Shown here in pieces: positions 13,676-23,887 of a stretch of 46,321 nucleotides of DNA. Made by a program: the position numbers and the translations under genes. Under the pieces are notes generated by a model that made no database searches, was not told the origin of the DNA, and saw only the letters and a program-made list of their open reading frames with translations. The DNA is from a virus: IMG/VR virus record IMGVR_UViG_3300029258_001254, positions 1 to 46,321 of that record. One strand, written 5' to 3'. Within the stretch, counting starts at the first letter, position 1; the number at the start of each line of letters is the position of its first letter.

Positions 13676-14217
13676 CAGAGCACCACCAGGAACCAGCCGG
13701 AGCCGTCGCGGTCCTCGATCAGCGCGGCCACCGGCACGCCCATCCGTCGCAGGGACATCGACCGCTCCGGCAGGCGGGCGTCCGACTCGACCACCAGCGC
13801 GGGCCACCCCGTGTCGACCTCCAGCGCCGGGGTCAGCCCGCGGTGGACGTCGGGCGACAGTGCCACGCTGTCGAACGGCGGCACCTTCACGCCGTCGATC
13901 TCCACGCAGCCGCACGCGGCCAGCTCGCGGACCCGGGCCAGCTCCTCCAGCGACAGCGTCCTCGAGGGTTCGGTCGGCTCCCCGAACTCGCCCAGGTAGA
14001 GCCTGTCGACTTCGTCCGCCATCGCGGCCACGGTCTCGCGGTCCGCACAATGCACGCAGCCGGCAGCCGCGCACGGGTCCGACGGCGAGCACAGCGGGCC
14101 GGCCCACGGCTTCAGCGCCGGGGCAGTCGCCACGCCGATCCGGTCTGACTCGCAGACGCCGCACCGTCCATCGGTGTGAATCGACGTGCAGCCGCAAGCC
14201 AGGCAGGCGCGGGTCAT
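13675..14217 (-). CDS. Cysteine-rich zinc-ribbon protein, unknown
   Basis: 180 residues from ATG 14217 (ATGA overlap). The N-terminus is strongly metal-binding: CLACGCTSIHTDGRCGVCES in residues 5-24, then CSPSDPCAAAGCVHC. The central part is helical (LSLEELARVRELAACGCVEI) and the C-terminus beta-rich, ending DRDGSGWFLVVL. It belongs to a run of small Cys-rich genes between the two terminase genes. Function unknown. Confidence 0.7.
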   Translation of the reverse strand: MTRACLACGCTSIHTDGRCGVCESDRIGVATAPALKPWAGPLCSPSDPCAAAGCVHCADRETVAAMADEVDRLYLGEFGEPTEPSRTLSLEELARVRELAACGCVEIDGVKVPPFDSVALSPDVHRGLTPALEVDTGWPALVVESDARLPERSMSLRRMGVPVAALIEDRDGSGWFLVVL

Positions 14218-15867: not shown

Positions 15868-17085
15868 TCACGACTTCCGCCGTCGACCCTTGGCCTTCGT
15901 CCGTCCTCGAGGACGCTTGGCCGTCGTCGCCCCCACGCGCTTCGCCTTCCCGCCGCTGACGTTTTGCCACCGCTCCACGATCACGTCGGCGAACTTCGGA
16001 TCCAGCTCCATCACGCGGCACGGTCGATCCAGTTGCTCGGCGGCGATCAGGGTCGAGCCCGATCCGCCGAACGGTTCGAACACGATCCCACCTGGCGCCG
16101 CGCTGTTCCGGATCCCGCGGGCCGGCAACTCGACCGGCTTTTGCGTGGGGTGGAGGTATTCGCGATCCCTGTCGACGGTCCACAGGTCCGATTGCTTTCG
16201 GTCGCTGTACCAATACGCGTCACCACCGCCCCGGCCCTTCCACCCGAAATAGATAAACTCGAACTGGCTGTGATAGTTCCGCCGCCGCAGCACGAAGGCA
16301 TCTTTGGCCCACACCAGGATCCGCGGCTGGAGCTGTAGATGGTGATCGAACAGCTTGGCGTACATTTCAAAATTCGTGGAGCCGCCGCAGAGGTAGAGCC
16401 GGGCGTTGTCGTCCAGCGCGTGATCGACGGCGACCGCGAACGAGATCGGGATCACCGCCTGCGTCAGGTCGCCGCTGATCGCGTTCTTCTTTGCGCCTCC
16501 GAAGATCACGCCGTAGGGGGGATCGGTGAACATCAGCGCGGCGCGTGACTTGCCCATCAGCTTCGCCACGTCCTCGCGCTTCGTGGAGTCGCCGCACAGC
16601 AGGACGTGACGCCCGAGCCGCCAGACGTCGCCGGGCTTCGTGGTCGCACGCTTCGGCAGCTCGGGCGCGTCGTCCTCGTCCACCTGCGAGTCCATCCCCG
16701 CGACGAACGCCACGAACTCGCGATCGCTCCAGCCCAGGCCGTCGATCACCTGCTGGTCCCCGATCCGCTTCAGGTCCTCGTAGACCCCACGGTCGTCCCA
16801 CTCGGCCAGTTCGGCGGATCGATTGTCGACCAGCCCGAGATCGCGCAGGTCGTCGGGCGTCAGGTCGTCGGCCGGCGTCACCTCGCACGACTCCCAACCG
16901 AGCTCACGCATCACCTGAAGCCGCCCGTTGCCGACGTGGACGACGTTGCCACGGACGATCAGGGGGAGCCGCTGGCCGAACCGCTCCAGCGAGTAGCGGA
17001 TCGCTGCCAGGTTCCGTTTCGTCCGCTTGCGCCGGTTGTTGGGGTCGAACACGAGATCGGCCACCTTCGCCTTCTTGATCTTCAT
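15868..17085 (-). CDS. ParB-like nuclease domain fused to a beta-class DNA adenine/cytosine-N4 methyltransferase
   Basis: 405 residues. Residues 1-130 match ParB/Sulfiredoxin-like domains: a VADLVFDPNNRR start, LIVRGNVVHVGNGRLQVMRE containing the GNGR motif (52-55), and LVDNRSAELAEWD. Residues 150-380 are an amino-methyltransferase: catalytic DPPYG (188-192), HPTQKPVELPARG, then the SAM-binding EPFGGSGST near 340. DPPY before FxGxG is the beta-class order. The tail is Lys/Arg-rich. It would methylate the exocyclic amino group of A or C, with the ParB part perhaps giving DNA contact. It lies next to the putative origin and small terminase. Confidence 0.9.
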   Translation of the reverse strand: MKIKKAKVADLVFDPNNRRKRTKRNLAAIRYSLERFGQRLPLIVRGNVVHVGNGRLQVMRELGWESCEVTPADDLTPDDLRDLGLVDNRSAELAEWDDRGVYEDLKRIGDQQVIDGLGWSDREFVAFVAGMDSQVDEDDAPELPKRATTKPGDVWRLGRHVLLCGDSTKREDVAKLMGKSRAALMFTDPPYGVIFGGAKKNAISGDLTQAVIPISFAVAVDHALDDNARLYLCGGSTNFEMYAKLFDHHLQLQPRILVWAKDAFVLRRRNYHSQFEFIYFGWKGRGGGDAYWYSDRKQSDLWTVDRDREYLHPTQKPVELPARGIRNSAAPGGIVFEPFGGSGSTLIAAEQLDRPCRVMELDPKFADVIVERWQNVSGGKAKRVGATTAKRPRGRTKAKGRRRKS

Positions 17086-17153: not shown

Positions 17154-17187
17154 CGTGCGGGGTGTCGCAGATCGGACACCCCGCACG
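17154..17187. repeat. Perfect 13-bp inverted repeat at the candidate origin
   Basis: CGTGCGGGGTGTC (17154-17166) pairs exactly with GACACCCCGCACG (17175-17187) around an 8-base spacer. The arms contain the iteron TGCGGGGTGT in opposite orientations. It could bind a dimeric initiator or ParB-like protein, or form a hairpin in single-stranded DNA or in the leader of the ParB-methyltransferase mRNA. Confidence 0.85.
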
Positions 17188-17443
17188 CAAGCGCCCGACC
17201 TTTCAAGCGAATCGGCCCGTGCGGGGTGTTGCGGGGTCAATTCCCGACTCCCCGGGCGTTTTTGTCACCCTGCGACTTTTTCAGCTTCAACATAGGGATC
17301 TACACCCCGCACACCCCGCAGCAGGGATCAAACCCTTGCGGCTGTAGTGCCAAGACTGCGGGGTGTCACGCGTGTCACACCCCGCAACACCCCGCAGACG
17401 TCCCGCGCAGGCGCGCGGGAGTAGTGCCAGCGGTGCGGGGTGT
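17156..17443. repeat. Iteron array, core TGCGGGGTGT
   Basis: Core copies on the plus strand start at 17156, 17220, 17357 and 17434. Reverse-complement copies (ACACCCCGCA) occur at 17176-17185, 17302-17311, 17311-17320, 17377-17386 and 17387-17396. A partial TGCGGGGT is at 17230. Two of the reverse copies form tight tandem pairs with 9- or 10-base period, about one helical turn, which suits cooperative protein binding on one DNA face. Confidence 0.85.
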
Positions 17444-17522
17444 CGATCATTTCCACGTCCCCCAACAGCCAGCCGTGTCATAGTGGGGATCCTTCCTACA
17501 GCCGCGTGGGTTTGCGTGTTCG

Positions 17523-20093
17523 TCACGGGATGATCTCCGATTCGACGCGCCAGACGGCGACGCCATTGCGGTCCGTGAACGCCACGAACTGCAACAGCTC
17601 GCGCCGGCCATGGTTCTCCACCTGGCGACGCCGGCCGCGGAACTTGCGCAGGACGGTCCCGAGCCGGCGGGGCGTCGGCAGGTCGCCCTTGCGCGTGCCG
17701 CACAGCTCGATCAACACCTCGCGCAGGGTTTCGCCGCCCGTGCGCTCCGCGGCGATCAGCGCGTCCTTCGCGCTCAGTCCCGACGCCAGCCCTTCGGCTT
17801 CGGCCCAGGCCAGCAGGAGCCGGCGGTGAAGCGACGCATCGGGATCGGCGTCGGGGTCGCGCGCTGCCAGCGCCTCCACCGGATCGGTGAAGCCCAGCCA
17901 GACGACGCAGCAGCGGACGAGATCGGACCAGCCCTCGAACGAACCGAGCGGCGCGAGCCCTTGCGTCGGGGCGCCGGCCTCGAAAAACGCGCGCAGGATC
18001 GTCAGCGACGCGGACAGCAGCTCGGGCCGCTTCGCGCGGACCCACTCCAACAGGGGATCGTGGCGGAAGCCGGTGCGTTCCTCCGGCCGCTCCAGGTTCG
18101 TCTCCAGTCGGATCCGCATCACGCGCCGGGCGGCGTCGGCCCGCACGCCGACGTTGTTGCCCGTGGCGTACCATGTCAGGTTCAGCGGCATCCGGACATT
18201 CTCCGACTTCCCGAGCACGCGATCCACCCACGCGGTCGCCGTCAGCGCCATGTCCAGGCACGGCCAGCCGATGAAGCCGCCCGATGGCACGTTGTCAATC
18301 AGCGCCAGCGTGTCGCCTGCGATCGCGTGACTCGTGATCCGCTTGCGCAGCTCGTCGTCCTCCTTCACGTAGGGCGAGCGCGGCATCCGCTGGCCGCTCG
18401 CGACCATCCCCACCACGTCGGCGCAAAGGGTCTTGCCCGTGCCCGGGGTCGACGCATCGAACACGAACATCGGGGCGCCGCCGCGGTAGGCGGTGAACGC
18501 GAGCGGCGACAGGAACGCGGCCAGCCAGCCGGCGCGGCAAGCGTCGGACGCGAAGGGGAAGTCGTGGGCGCATTCCATCACCAGCGACAGGGCGCGCTGC
18601 GCGTCGTCGCGCGACGGCTTCGCCGGCAGTTCGGGCAGGCGGAGCTGGCGCACGTAGACGAGCCCGGTGGCCTGGTCGTAGCCGGGCCGGTCGTGGATCG
18701 TCCCGTCTGGGCGCAGGACCGGAACGGTCACGACTCCGGTTATCTCGCGGATCCCGGGGTAGTCGCCGCGCTCGTGAAGCGCGGTGATCACCGGCGACGG
18801 CGGCTCGCGTCTCACCTCCTCGCGCTTTCGCGCATCCCACCGGAGCCAATCGGCCTCGCGGCTCATGATCTCCCAAAGCATGGGGCGGGGGATGTTCACC
18901 ACCACCGGCGCCCCGGTGTCGCGCGTGACGCCCGCGCCGTCCTCTGGCGTGTCGACGCGCGCGACGCGCGCGAGCTTGCGGGCCCGGTGGTAGACGTTGT
19001 CCACGTCGGCGAGCACGCCGAGCGCGAACTGGACGGCGCGATCGCCCTCGCCGGTGACGTACTGCCACGACGGCCGGCCTTCGTCCGGCGGCTCTCCGTG
19101 CGGCGGGGCGCCGTCGTCGGGCGGGGGCGGGACGACGCGCAGATCGGGCGGCGGCGGGGGCGGTGGTGTCGACGGCGTGCCCAGGTAGCCGCCCCGCCGC
19201 AACAGCTCGGCGTGGTCGACGCCCTCCGCGTGCGCGTCCACGTCCAGGGCGTCGCCGTGGTAGCAGCCGGGCCCCTCGATCCCCGCGCCGCCGTGGTTCG
19301 TGCTGAAGCAAGCCCAGCGGCTCGGGTCCTTCGGCAGCGGGCCGAAGCAGCCCTTGTGACCGCAGACGGGGCAGACCCGCTTCGGCCCGCCGACGGCCCG
19401 CCAGTCGCGCGCGTGGTCGGCGTTGTACCGTTCGCACGCTTCGCGGAACGTCACCGCGGCCGGCGAGTCGGGCCGGGCCGGCGGTAGGTCCTCGATCGCG
19501 TCCTCGAGGGGGCGTTCATCGAACGCGCGGGCGGCCTCCAACAGCACGTCGCGTTCCGACTCGTCCAGCAGCGGGACGGCGGACAACGGGATCGGGCTGG
19601 TCGGATCGTAGGTGCGGCCGGCGGGGTGACAGCCCGGCGGGCTCGGCCGCGTCAGCACGTAGCCGCCTTCGCCGCGGGTCTCGATCAGGACCCGGAATTT
19701 TCCCGGCACGCCGGTCGGCGTCATGGCCAGCTTCTGGTTCCCCGCCGGGTTGTCGCTTCGGATGAATACGTGGTCGCCGCCGCTCGGCGTTCGGACGCGC
19801 GGAAGCCTGGCCAGTAAGGCGGGCGCTTCGCGGTCGACGCGCTCCGCCCACCTCTCGATCAGGCCGGGTTCGTCAAAGTCCAGGATCTCCAGCCCGCCAC
19901 TGACGTGACCGCCGAGCACGGCGATCCCGCGTTCGGTCCCGTTGCCGAACCATGCCTGCAGCTCGTCGGCCGTCGCGATCCGTTCCTGGTACTCCTTCCA
20001 CGGACAGGCTGGCGCCTTCGAGCCGTCGACCTTGATCGGGATCACGCTGATCCCCGCTGCGGTGTATGCCTTCGCGGCCTCCAGGATCTTCAC
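17523..20093 (-). CDS. Bifunctional DNA primase/polymerase (PrimPol) - helicase replication protein
   Basis: 856 residues from GTG 20093 (GTGA overlap). The N-terminal PrimPol domain has the catalytic acidic pair in LEILDFDEP (about 72-74), SGGDHVFIR (about 107-115) and ETRGEGGYVLTRPSP. Near residue 240 a zinc finger reads CPVCGHKGCFGPLP. A Pro-rich linker follows (about 310-345). The C-terminal half is a P-loop ATPase with STPGTGKT near 550, LALIDNVP and NLTWYATGNN as Walker B and sensor 1 candidates, and an R-finger region. It would prime and unwind DNA at the origin. No separate DNA polymerase is seen, so the host enzyme is probably used. Confidence 0.9.
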   Translation of the reverse strand: MKILEAAKAYTAAGISVIPIKVDGSKAPACPWKEYQERIATADELQAWFGNGTERGIAVLGGHVSGGLEILDFDEPGLIERWAERVDREAPALLARLPRVRTPSGGDHVFIRSDNPAGNQKLAMTPTGVPGKFRVLIETRGEGGYVLTRPSPPGCHPAGRTYDPTSPIPLSAVPLLDESERDVLLEAARAFDERPLEDAIEDLPPARPDSPAAVTFREACERYNADHARDWRAVGGPKRVCPVCGHKGCFGPLPKDPSRWACFSTNHGGAGIEGPGCYHGDALDVDAHAEGVDHAELLRRGGYLGTPSTPPPPPPPDLRVVPPPPDDGAPPHGEPPDEGRPSWQYVTGEGDRAVQFALGVLADVDNVYHRARKLARVARVDTPEDGAGVTRDTGAPVVVNIPRPMLWEIMSREADWLRWDARKREEVRREPPSPVITALHERGDYPGIREITGVVTVPVLRPDGTIHDRPGYDQATGLVYVRQLRLPELPAKPSRDDAQRALSLVMECAHDFPFASDACRAGWLAAFLSPLAFTAYRGGAPMFVFDASTPGTGKTLCADVVGMVASGQRMPRSPYVKEDDELRKRITSHAIAGDTLALIDNVPSGGFIGWPCLDMALTATAWVDRVLGKSENVRMPLNLTWYATGNNVGVRADAARRVMRIRLETNLERPEERTGFRHDPLLEWVRAKRPELLSASLTILRAFFEAGAPTQGLAPLGSFEGWSDLVRCCVVWLGFTDPVEALAARDPDADPDASLHRRLLLAWAEAEGLASGLSAKDALIAAERTGGETLREVLIELCGTRKGDLPTPRRLGTVLRKFRGRRRQVENHGRRELLQFVAFTDRNGVAVWRVESEIIP

Positions 20094-20398
20094 GATCGCC
20101 TCCCGTTCCCGTTGCCGTTGCCGCTGCACTGACACGCGCCGGCCTGGCAGAGCTGCCCGCGCTTCGCGTTGCATTCGCGGCAAGCCGGCACGATGTTGTC
20201 GCGCGTGTAGCGCCCGCCCGCGTGCCCGCAGATCGGCCAGCGGTCGACCTCCCAATCGGTCACGCGGCGCAGGCACCAGAAACACTGGACGGCGCCGCCG
20301 CCCAGGTCGTAGAGCCGCGCGAGGTAAGCGCGGCGCGCGCGCCGGTCATAGCTGCTGCCGCGGTCGTTCGTGTTGCTCGTCCCGCGCGTGGTGGTCAT
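20090..20398 (-). CDS. HNH endonuclease
   Basis: 102 residues, ATG 20398 in an ATGA overlap. It has CFWCLRRV (first zinc pair), then WPICGHAGGRYTRDNIVPAC and RECNAKRG, the HNH pattern of His, Asn and a second CxxC. A further Cys group follows in a Gly/Asn-rich tail. It nicks or cuts DNA. HNH proteins often assist packaging or recombination, but here it lies beside the PrimPol gene. A free-standing homing type is possible. Confidence 0.85.
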   Translation of the reverse strand: MTTTRGTSNTNDRGSSYDRRARRAYLARLYDLGGGAVQCFWCLRRVTDWEVDRWPICGHAGGRYTRDNIVPACRECNAKRGQLCQAGACQCSGNGNGNGRRS

Positions 20399-21292: not shown

Positions 21293-21639
21293 TCGGCCAG
21301 CCACGACGCCACCTCCGTCAGTGCCCGCGGCTCGCCCATGTAGAACACGGGCAGCCCGAGCGCGGTCGCGATGTCCAGCTCTGCCAGCGATCCGGCGCTG
21401 GAGCGGAAGCGGGGCGCGAGCGCGATCGCGTCGCTGCGGCGCAAAAGCGCCGCCGTCCCGTCCAGCCAGAAGCGATCGGACAGCGTCCGATCCCAAAAGC
21501 GGTACATGCTGTGCGGGACGAGCGGCACGGCGCCGAGCTGCGCCAGCTCGAACCCGATCCGCTCCGCCTCGCGCACGTTCAGCTCGACGCGCCAGGAATC
21601 GCCGGCACGGTAGGGGCCGGCCACGTAGATCACTTTCAT
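21289..21639 (-). CDS. Nucleoside 2-deoxyribosyltransferase-like protein (DUF4406/DUF1937 type)
   Basis: 116 residues from ATG 21639 (ATGA overlap with the methyltransferase). It starts MKVIYVAGPYRAGD, the typical first strand and loop of the deoxyribosyltransferase fold. It goes on with NVREAERIGFELAQLGAVPL, VPHSMYRFWD, a DAIALAPRF strand, SAGSLAELDIATALGLPVFY with the candidate catalytic Glu, and a final helix. The family exchanges or cleaves bases on deoxynucleosides, and many phage members are uncharacterised. Coupling to a DNA methyltransferase hints at nucleotide or base metabolism for modified DNA. Confidence 0.8.
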   Translation of the reverse strand: MKVIYVAGPYRAGDSWRVELNVREAERIGFELAQLGAVPLVPHSMYRFWDRTLSDRFWLDGTAALLRRSDAIALAPRFRSSAGSLAELDIATALGLPVFYMGEPRALTEVASWLAE

Positions 21640-22385
21640 CCGAACAACTCCAGGGTGTGGGGTTTGGCCAGGCGGTCGACCGCCTTGGCGTAGGTGGTGG
21701 GGTCGATCTCCGCGCCGACGCAGTTGCGTCCCTCCGCGCGGCAGGCCAGCAGCGTCGTCCCGGTCCCGGCAAACGGGTCCAGGATCAGATCGCCCGGCTT
21801 CGAGTAGAGCCGCACCAGCGCGCGGATCAAGTCCAGCGGCTTCTGGCCGGGGTGTGCCTTCTGGCCGTCGGTTCCCCTGGTCGAGCTGGTGCGGTGAATG
21901 AAGTATCCCGGCACGCTTCCGAGCATCCCGGCTTTCGACTTCGTGCGCGCCACCGTCAGCCACTCCACGGGCAGCTCGTCGGGCTCCGCCCTCGCCGCCA
22001 GGGTTATGTGTTCGGCCGCGGACGCCGGGCCGTCGCCAGACATCCGTGGTGCGGCGTCTGGCTTCACCCACGGGACAGGCTGGAACACGTAGAGCCCGTT
22101 GCGCTCGCAGTCGGAGCGATACCAGGACGCGGTGACGTGGTCCCCGAACAAAACCAGCCACCGGCGGATCCGCGGTGCAAAGAAGTCCACGATCTCCTGC
22201 GCCTGGCAGCGCGTGATCGAGCCGTAGGAGATCGAGGACTGGCGAACTTCGGATCCGGTGCGCCGGCCTTCGTGGGTCTTACGGCTGAAGGGCGGGTCCG
22301 TGATCACGGCGTCGATCTCGTCGTAGTCCTCGAGGACGGTTCGCCAGTCGCCGAGCCGCAGATCGATCAGGGGTGGGCGCTTCAT
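21636..22385 (-). CDS. DNA amino-methyltransferase, beta class (N4-cytosine or N6-adenine)
   Basis: 249 residues from ATG 22385 with AAAGGCG upstream. The order is catalytic DPPF (residues 30-33) after DAVIT, then FAPRIRRWLVLFGDHVTASW, a PGQKPLDLIRALVRLYSKPG motif and the SAM-binding DPFAGTGTT near 205 followed by AEIDPTTYAKAV. This is a complete amino-methyltransferase of normal length. No restriction enzyme is next to it, so self-protection or regulation of phage DNA is more likely than a full restriction system. The target base and site are unknown. Confidence 0.9.
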   Translation of the reverse strand: MKRPPLIDLRLGDWRTVLEDYDEIDAVITDPPFSRKTHEGRRTGSEVRQSSISYGSITRCQAQEIVDFFAPRIRRWLVLFGDHVTASWYRSDCERNGLYVFQPVPWVKPDAAPRMSGDGPASAAEHITLAARAEPDELPVEWLTVARTKSKAGMLGSVPGYFIHRTSSTRGTDGQKAHPGQKPLDLIRALVRLYSKPGDLILDPFAGTGTTLLACRAEGRNCVGAEIDPTTYAKAVDRLAKPHTLELFG

Positions 22386-22567
22386 CGCTTCGCCTTTCGC
22401 TTCAGGTGGGGCGCGTACTGAGCCGGCCGCCGGCATAGCCGGTGGTGTCTCCGCGGGACGACCAGGCACGCGGCGCAAAGGTAGTAGCCGTCGGGGCAGC
22501 TCGCGCAATGCAACACGGTCGGCGCCCGGCAGCTCGCGCACGGGGTCAGGCGGACGGCGGCGGTCAC
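22382..22567 (-). CDS. Small B-box-like zinc protein, unknown
   Basis: 61 residues from GTG 22567 (GTGA overlap). It has Cys/His pairs CASCRAPTVLHCASC, YYLCAACLVVPRRHHRLC, then a basic tail. The CxxC-x8-CxxC-x7-CxxC...H-H-x-x-C spacing resembles a cross-brace zinc finger. Possible protein-protein contact module. Function unknown. Confidence 0.65.
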   Translation of the reverse strand: MTAAVRLTPCASCRAPTVLHCASCPDGYYLCAACLVVPRRHHRLCRRPAQYAPHLKRKAKR

Positions 22568-23301
22568 CACGGCCTCGCGTGGTAGACGACGCCGCCCAGA
22601 TCGCCGCGGCCGTCGCTGTCCTTTTTGAAAAAGAACGGGACTCCAGCCCGGTCGCAGACCCGGCGCGCGTCGTGGAACCAATCGGGGTCAGCCCGCCGCG
22701 CCTTCTGCCCGGTCTCCGCCCCGGCGATCAGCCAGCCGAGCCGGCCGCCGCCGAACGTCGCCGCCATCGGTCCAGGCAGCCACGGGCGGAAGTCGACGGC
22801 GCCGAGCGCGGGCTCGTAGCTGACGAAGTGACCGGCGGCCGGTACGGTCAGCAGTACGGGGATCCGCTCGTCGGCGCGCGCCTGGTTCTCCACGCTGACG
22901 CCCAGCCAGACGTTCGGCAGCGGGTCGCGGTTCTCCAGGTACTTCCGCATCGACCCCGGCCGCTTCGTCAGGACCAGGAACCGATGCCGCTCGGCGGCTG
23001 CCATCACGCGCCAGACGTGATCGCGCCAGACGTGCAGGACGCCGTCGCCGAAAAGGTCCGCCATCGAACAGACGAAGATCGCGGCCGGCTTGCGCCACCG
23101 GCCGGGCTCGTCCAGCCGCTTCGCCACCAGCTCGGCGCGGCCGTCCCACTCCTTCACGCGCTCGTAGCCCTGGACGCCGGCACCAGCCAGCCGCCGGGCG
23201 AAGGGTCGCGCGTAGCAACGGGCGCAGCCTTCAGAGATCGGCGCGCAGCCGATCACCGGGTTCCAGACCTTGTCGGCCCACTCGATCGCTGTCGTGGTCA
23301 T
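22564..23301 (-). CDS. Phage Gp37/Gp68-like protein (DUF5131 type)
   Basis: 245 residues from ATG 23301, with GGAAGG upstream. The N-terminus MTTTAIEWADKVWNPVIGCA followed by SEGCARCYARPFARR is the hallmark of this family: W-N-P-x-x-G-C...G-C-x-x-C-Y. Later features are IFVCSMADLFGD, FLVLTKRPGSM, PNVWLGVSVENQ, FVSYEPALG and WLIAGAETG. The conserved cysteines suggest an iron-sulphur or zinc site and the strand pattern a TIM barrel. The biochemical role is not established to my knowledge. It is widespread in phages and sometimes near DNA-modification genes. Confidence 0.85.
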   Translation of the reverse strand: MTTTAIEWADKVWNPVIGCAPISEGCARCYARPFARRLAGAGVQGYERVKEWDGRAELVAKRLDEPGRWRKPAAIFVCSMADLFGDGVLHVWRDHVWRVMAAAERHRFLVLTKRPGSMRKYLENRDPLPNVWLGVSVENQARADERIPVLLTVPAAGHFVSYEPALGAVDFRPWLPGPMAATFGGGRLGWLIAGAETGQKARRADPDWFHDARRVCDRAGVPFFFKKDSDGRGDLGGVVYHARPW

Positions 23302-23489
23302 GGTCGCCTTCCTTTCGACGCCGCGACGCGGGCGCACGTTCGGCACGTCCCGATCCGCGTCCCTGTCGGCTCGTAGTACGCCACGACCTTCCCGCAGAGC
23401 GCGACGTCGTGGGGTGGTTCGGTCAGGTGGACGACGCCACGCCACGACCTCCACCGCTTGAATCGGTTGGACAGCCGGCGCAGTTCCAT
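23298..23489 (-). CDS. Small basic zinc protein, unknown
   Basis: 63 residues from ATG 23489 (TGATG overlap). It has LCGKVV...CRTCARV and a W-R-S-W-R-G segment: a single split zinc site in a basic protein. Such DUF-type proteins often follow early replication genes. Unknown. Confidence 0.65.
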   Translation of the reverse strand: MELRRLSNRFKRWRSWRGVVHLTEPPHDVALCGKVVAYYEPTGTRIGTCRTCARVAASKGRRP

Positions 23490-23887
23490 CACCGCGCCAG
23501 CCTGTCCGCCGGCAGTTCGACCCAATCCGGCGCGCTGGGGTCCAGCTCGCCCGCCAGAACGCCGCGTGCGTCCTCCAGGCAGTCCACCGCGGCCCCGATG
23601 CCACCGGACCGCCGCACGCGCTTCAGGAACGCCACCTGGGACGCCCAGCGCGCTTTGTCCTTCGCGTTGCGTGGTCGCCACCCAGGCCGCTTCACCTCCA
23701 GCGCAGCGAAGCGGCCGGAGCCGCGGAGTTGACCCACCAGGTCGGAGCCGCCGGGGCCGCCCAGCCCGTAGGTGACCTTGTGCGTCCCGAAGTCGGCGAC
23801 GCCGACGGCGTTGACCATCAGATCCGCCAGCTCACAGCAGCCGAGCCGAATGGCGCGGACGACGTCCCGCTCTGTCACCGGCGGCAC
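23489..23887 (-). CDS. VRR-NUC type PD-(D/E)xK nuclease
   Basis: 132 residues from GTG 23887 (TAGTG overlap). The catalytic core is seen as GGPGGSDLVGQL (Asp49) and FAALEVKRPG (Glu64-x-Lys66), followed by a helix and WASQVAFLKRVRRSGGIGAA, the V-R-R-type strand of the family. VRR-NUC proteins resolve branched DNA, and phage copies may serve as Holliday-junction resolvases. Here it lies among recombination genes. Confidence 0.85.
   Translation of the reverse strand: MPPVTERDVVRAIRLGCCELADLMVNAVGVADFGTHKVTYGLGGPGGSDLVGQLRGSGRFAALEVKRPGWRPRNAKDKARWASQVAFLKRVRRSGGIGAAVDCLEDARGVLAGELDPSAPDWVELPADRLAR

Follow-up and report, generated by a model that had tools for sequence, protein, structure and literature searches.

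In SaPI origins, opposed groups of iterons flank an AT-rich region, and we know of no PrimPol domain in SaPI Rep. This protein reads iterons located directly downstream of its own gene via its C-terminal domain, and the origins of SaPI Rep and SCCmec Cch2 have in common that short iterons directly follow the gene of a self-loading helicase (PMC7581432). On the Streptomyces plasmid pWTY27, replication requires repA, repB and, in cis, a 300-bp non-coding region, which the helicase polypeptide, RepA, binds alone, leaving footprints at 405–447 and 462–509 (PMC3583192). The authors described repeats and a long inverted repeat in this plasmid and raised a stem-loop as a possibility, they found that a 149-bp fragment (382–530) failed to restore replication, and the available text of their paper makes no mention of a common spacing ruler (PMC3583192). 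For the crenarchaeal plasmid pRN1, the origin has been described as a required, iteron-free 100-bp stem-loop directly 3′ of the PrimPol-helicase gene; according to the accessible parts of the report, the replication protein could not be shown to bind it specifically, and one stem mutation was rescued once symmetry was restored (PMC4234260). The same report proposes a stem-loop origin for phage BIP-1, a near-identical relative of Bordetella phage BPP-1, and its accessible text reports no origin iterons for BIP-1 (PMC4234260). Lastly, initiation by the PrimPol of phage NrS-1 takes place at defined words, TTTGGTTA or GTG/GTGG (PMC8718748).

Here, we compare these systems with a locus in the genome of an uncultivated phage, for which we arrive at a concrete predicted origin. 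The analysed stretch of 46,321 bp, referred to as the window in the following, contains an iteron array that the first-pass annotation had put forward as a candidate replication origin. Comparative evidence and the published experiments on the homologous plasmid locus of pWTY27 make this the best-supported reading, and in our judgment the array very probably serves this phage as its origin of replication and is read by the protein that the preceding gene encodes. It is best understood as an iteron origin belonging to a self-loading primase-helicase, of a kind already known from SaPI Rep and pWTY27. The basis for this functional assignment in the phage, which we infer by analogy, comprises the array itself, the geometry of its core, the recurrence of such arrays 3′ of related helicase genes and the agreement with the published pWTY27 footprint.

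The array consists of short iterons in both orientations, nine of them exact copies of TGCGGGGTGT and one degenerate. As the annotation had estimated, there are nine exact copies, four on the plus and five on the minus strand, and a count over the window finds every one of them within 17156–17443. After dinucleotide shuffling of the whole 46 kb, 0.12 copies are expected and none of 100 shuffles reached nine, so that chance was rejected as the source of the repeats, and their density exceeds what base composition provides. The control word, TGCGGGGTGT reversed but not complemented, has no occurrence in the window, and allowing one mismatch in TGCGGGGTGT adds just five sites in 46 kb, none close to the array. 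Low-complexity GC repeats were also considered as the nature of the array and discarded. Cumulative GC skew, which had been suggested as a further check, falls along the whole contig without a turn near 17 kb; for a linear record that may be incomplete, this counts neither for nor against an origin.

Written in gene direction, with > for TGCGGGGTGT, < for its reverse complement and numbers for start-to-start distances, the array reads < 47 > 10 > 20 < 46 > 9 > 72 < 10 < 44 > 20 <. The two tandem pairs with near-helical period noted previously are present at 17302/17311 (step 9) and 17377/17387 (step 10), but a third pair had been overlooked, formed by the copy at 17220 and the degenerate iteron TGCGGGGTCA at 17230–17239. 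In classical DnaA-assisted iteron plasmid origins of the RepE/RepA type, direct iterons of ~17–22 bp share a single orientation; with its steps of 9–10 bp and its copies in both orientations, the window does not conform to this type, and we rejected it. An exact 20-nt tandem word was absent from the viral contigs searched.

Two of the tandem pairs face each other and form the predicted origin core (17220–17320), which corresponds to the core that is protected from DNase I in pWTY27; with words of length 7, the 46-kb window contains no other facing-pair core. Pair A consists of exact copies at 17302–17311 and 17311–17320, both on the minus strand and 9 bp apart, while pair B, on the plus strand, consists of an exact copy at 17220–17229 and, 10 bp further on, of TGCGGGGTCA at 17230–17239 with two mismatches. 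The 62-nt spacer between them (17240–17301) is AT-richer and a candidate unwinding region: the 64-nt stretch 17238–17301 has a GC content of 0.516, and only 0.4% of the 64-nt segments of the contig are equally low or lower. The opposed iteron groups thus bracket an AT-richer stretch. Around this core lie satellites. On the side of the PrimPol-helicase gene, these are exact copies at 17357–17366 (plus), 17377–17386 (minus) and 17387–17396 (minus), and an outermost exact copy at 17434–17443 (plus); on the side of the methyltransferase gene, they form an inverted pair, 17156–17165 (plus) and 17176–17185 (minus), within 17154–17187. The latter stretch is the perfect 13-bp inverted repeat of the first-pass annotation, with arms at 17154–17166 and 17175–17187, exactly as claimed. 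The satellite spacing of 20 and 44–46 nt is repeated with other letters at five related loci (L122, L143, L221, L237 and L311). The functional unit is probably the facing-pair core together with its flanking satellite pairs, and not simply the copy number.

The comparison with pWTY27 extends to each of these elements. Its helicase is homologous to that of the window (31% over 441 aa), the array follows directly 3′, and iterons of 8–10 bp in both orientations are arranged in the same order, namely satellites, facing tandem pairs and spacer, followed by the mirror image. By contrast, the letters differ (GTGGGAAC versus TGCGGGGTGT), the satellite spacing is 16/40 instead of 20/44–46, and primase and helicase are encoded by separate genes. 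When we convert the published footprints to the coordinates of our pWTY27 locus, L098, they correspond to 13842–13884 and 13780–13827 and, by this conversion of ours, fall on the two arms of the facing core (13787–13884), with the spacer centre unprotected. By the same conversion, the fragment 382–530 includes the core and excludes the satellites; since this core-only fragment restored no replication, satellites or flanks probably matter for the replication of pWTY27.

The array fills a 437-nt gap between two genes on the minus strand. Upstream of it, at 17523–20285, lies the gene of the predicted initiator, a PrimPol-helicase with an N-terminal AEP/PrimPol domain, an AAA+ helicase and a predicted C-terminal winged-helix-like domain, whose true start is uncertain; the ORF matches the Pfam Prim-Pol family (PF09250, E 1.8e-18) and phage primase/helicase PHROGs (phrog_29234/19930), and its end is separated from the first iteron by 79 nt in gene direction, so that the array does stand directly behind a PrimPol-helicase gene. 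Downstream, at 15868–17085, follows a fusion of a ParB-like domain with a DNA methyltransferase (phrog_498, E 1.4e-104; PF01555), and then the genes of the small and large terminase subunits. Megablast of the 11.5–25.4 kb region of the window against named phages gave no match. Two genes upstream of the PrimPol gene, at 21636–22541 and 22564–23604, encode another DNA methyltransferase and a DUF5131 protein.

These neighbours suggest two other uses for the array. It could be an operator of the downstream ParB-methyltransferase and terminase genes, as its last iteron precedes the start of the methyltransferase gene by ~70 nt, on the same strand, and the promoter of this gene could overlap the array. 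We nevertheless consider this improbable, because arrays keep their place behind the helicase gene whatever comes next, including in plasmids without an adjacent terminase, and because among 55 ParB-methyltransferase loci examined (80 were fetched), only one, L073, had an 8-mer with at least six copies in the 800 nt upstream. The array may still have a regulatory side role. At L073, a virus contig with different neighbours, the ACAGAAGT array upstream of the ParB-methyltransferase gene occupies 1425–1673. Alternatively, the adjacent small terminase subunit and ParB-like domain might point to a packaging (pac/cos) or a parS-like partition site, which appears highly improbable to us, given that plasmids with neither a terminase nor a ParB-methyltransferase gene annotated alongside carry arrays of this layout too.

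To place the array in its evolutionary context, we turn to the relatives of the helicase. Distant named relatives of its helicase part are found in phages and plasmids, and in eight of 17 that were fetched, an array of a different 8–10 bp word begins at most ~120 nt from the helicase stop codon; the other nine, lacking a clear array next to the gene, do not enter the geometry set described below. Further relatives were collected by searching viral and genomic contigs with a degenerate DNA pattern for the helicase motif; this yielded 239 ORFs, every one of which matches the helicase profile. Protein-pattern searches, with the full PrimPol or with a two-sequence alignment, had found no relatives, as poorly conserved words were chosen. 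After removal of 24 ORFs that lacked a stop or had less than 250 nt downstream, 215 were usable. Within 400 nt downstream, an 8-mer occurs at least four times in 58 of the 215, compared with 86 of 8518 control windows taken from these loci, while 157 relatives have no such cluster of exact 8-mers. Over the same distance, a motif-free search detects facing-pair cores at 45 of the 215 loci against 5 of 2150 control windows when the word length is 7, and at 60 of the 215 against 5 of 2150 when it is 6. The 215 loci are not independent: at 80% identity they collapse into 116 clusters, 39 of them with a core, and at 60% single linkage into 53, 14 of them with a core. Judged from this recurrence in sequence downstream of relatives, the array of the window is a member of a class.

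Within this class, letters differ between families and the spacing stays. The iteron words include TGCGGGGACT, TGCGGAGATG, GCGGGGATAG, GCGAGGTTA, AGGGGTTT, GCGGGTATT and others, and TGCGGGGT itself was found in contigs of Planctomycetota and Opitutaceae. Two of the closest relatives (L161 and L241, 41% identity) have no array near the gene, and the sole array of L286 is one-directional and located ~2.5 kb upstream. In a Sandaracinaceae contig (L258, 3634–4015 in gene orientation), ten copies of TGCGGGTTC start just past the end of the helicase homology, and the reading frame continues through them without a stop. Strong clusters also occurred among the control windows, namely GTCCGACAA at L190, ~1 kb from the helicase gene, and GCCCGTGGCC at L211, ~5 kb from it.

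We then described the geometry of 92 arrays, comprising the 83 loci with an array score above 2 (the 132 of 215 with a score of 2 or less were left out), the eight named relatives and the window. Adjacent same-orientation pairs at most 30 bp apart number 332, and 58, 169 and 46 of them have steps of 8, 9 and 10 bp, respectively. In 66 arrays, a tandem group faces an inverted copy over 45–145 nt, compared with an average of 15.9 and a maximum of 29 facing cores in 2000 trials of orientation shuffling; four arrays are divergent. Spacers have a GC content of 0.522 versus 0.595 in the remaining downstream stretch and are GC-poorer than it in 54 of the 66 cases. The helical phasing of the spacer gave a weak signal near 9.5–10 bp and nothing convincing at 10.5.

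Such symmetry raises the question of whether the long inverted repeat is recognized as an extruded stem-loop or cruciform instead of as separate duplex iterons, as has been proposed in print for pRN1 and BIP-1 (PMC4234260) and considered for pWTY27 (PMC3583192). Several observations are in keeping with a hairpin: the step sizes are mirrored between the arms in 43 of 53 cores, the symmetry extends a little way into the spacer (a match of 0.41, compared with 0.30 in shuffled sequences and a shuffle maximum of 0.365), the core of the window is foldable as single-stranded DNA (z −4.4), and in pRN1 there is the single case of symmetry-restoring rescue (PMC4234260). However, the arms are out of register in 10 of the 53 cores, among them that of the window (9 versus 10), and their iteron numbers are unequal in 18. 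Moreover, a hairpin needs neither tandem repeats within its arms nor satellites outside, yet both recur. We therefore regard the stem-loop as unlikely and prefer duplex iterons as the recognized element, although the long inverted repeat may still have a structural role.

Three published systems can be examined in this light; they were chosen from papers and are supporting cases, not a random sample. In pRN1, the PrimPol-helicase gene is followed by an inverted repeat that holds tandem words, as in the window, with TGTCCA/TGGACA appearing twice per arm at a distance of 9 bp; unlike the window, it lacks satellites and was published as a stem-loop. In BPP-1 (L349), ACGAGGCAA occurs four times in the fetched 7 kb, two and two opposed around a spacer with a step of 9, at 467–570 nt after the primase stop. 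Its letters differ from those of the window and the array is displaced by an opposing ORF, but we consider it a candidate origin of this phage. In NrS-1 (L345, 7168–7483), 12 copies of AAAGTGTAAC with up to two mismatches follow the primase gene, the first 11 nt after its stop; here, both the letters and an irregular order differ from the window, and the array overlaps an annotated hypothetical gene. NrS-1 and pRN2 fail the strict facing-pair scan.

Which part of the initiator reads the iterons can be approached from its structure. The AlphaFold model of the helicase part (residues 401–920, pLDDT 94) is similar in fold to vaccinia D5 (Z 14.1 over 313 residues, rmsd 5.1), SaPI5 Rep (Z 13.7 over 322 residues, rmsd 5.3), PriRep1 with duplex DNA (Z 12.2 over 364 residues, rmsd 6.2) and the C-terminal region of NrS-1 (Z 11.7 over 357 residues, rmsd 6.0). 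For SaPI5 Rep, this resemblance in fold comes with low sequence similarity, and a PDB profile search with the helicase gave weak AAA+ and NrS-1 matches only. The isolated C-terminal domain is predicted to consist of four helices and three strands (HHHH-EEE) in a winged-helix-like arrangement (pLDDT 88). Its structural matches are weak, with a best Z of 5.9 and with regulators and ORC winged helices among them, and a fold search with this domain returned no match at E 0.001 or better. Among the 45 of 90 rows of the helicase alignment that had a usable motif, motif similarity follows the identity of the C-terminal domain (partial r 0.17, p 0.002) more than that of the ATPase (0.09, p 0.08), a weak effect at 45 loci.

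A different line of evidence comes from the 18-nt tandem word TGCGGGGTGTGCGGGGTG, which is present in 13 viral contigs. In eight of them, the end of a long ORF lies close to the array, either 13 to 87 nt ahead of it or with an overlap of 13, and these eight, the only ones scanned for domains, all match DUF5906, five of them also carrying a Toprim domain. The helicase profile detects none of these eight ORFs, and the C-terminal profile gives nothing significant on them. At L350, L352, L354, L356, L358, L360, L361 and L362, identical iteron letters, often in identical geometry, stand directly behind Toprim-DUF5906 primase-helicase genes. The letters are thus seemingly independent of the PrimPol domain. 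Since, in addition, RepA of pWTY27, which is homologous to the helicase part of the initiator, binds alone (PMC3583192), the helicase polypeptide with its C-terminal domain is the more likely reader of the iterons, rather than the PrimPol domain.

The same findings bear on the idea that the repeats are template start sites of the PrimPol domain, in the manner of TTTGGTTA for NrS-1 PrimPol. The iterons of the window do contain GTG, one of the published start words (PMC8718748). But all ten copies are TGCGGGGTGT or TGCGGGGTCA and none is TTTGGTTA, the array of NrS-1 itself is built of AAAGTGTAAC, with TTTGGTTA occurring once in the fetched 10 kb, and the Toprim-DUF5906 genes that precede the same letters and geometry have no detected PrimPol domain. 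Together with the autonomous binding of the pWTY27 helicase, this renders start sites distinctly improbable.

Returning to an origin read by the helicase polypeptide, we propose the following mechanism. The C-terminal domain of the PrimPol-helicase would bind the 9–10 bp iterons, and two assemblies, probably hexamers, would form on the facing tandem pairs at 17220–17239 and 17302–17320. The AT-richer 62-nt spacer would then melt and each ring would load, whereupon the PrimPol domain would prime the opened strands and forks would depart, presumably in both directions. The satellites (17156–17185, 17357–17396 and 17434–17443) may strengthen or regulate the assembly.

More broadly, we lean towards the view that one origin architecture, set by a ruler and not by letters, serves the primase-helicase replicons of phages and of bacterial and archaeal plasmids. 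Its ruler would be two tandem pairs of 8–10 bp iterons that face each other over ~50–130 bp immediately after the initiator gene, in many cases flanked by satellite pairs ~38–47 bp outside. It would span initiators of the PrimPol and the Toprim-DUF5906 type that have no detectable similarity in helicase or C-terminal domain, even where they share the same letters, and would count the published pRN1 ‘stem-loop’ and the BPP-1 origin among its instances. In the open-licence PMC literature, a search for a general description of this ruler yielded only the SCCmec paper (PMC7581432). The ruler amounts to a simple sequence-only rule for locating the origins of primase-helicase replicons, and it makes testable whether ‘stem-loop’ origins of the pRN1 type are hairpins or duplex iteron pairs on which two helicase rings are placed head to head.

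As a minor observation, two stretches of the window, 17338–17367 and 17415–17444, constitute a 30-nt repeat with 80% identity in which GTAGTGCCA is linked with an iteron. Read on the minus strand, this repeat contains TGGCACTAC, which resembles half of a sigma-54 promoter.
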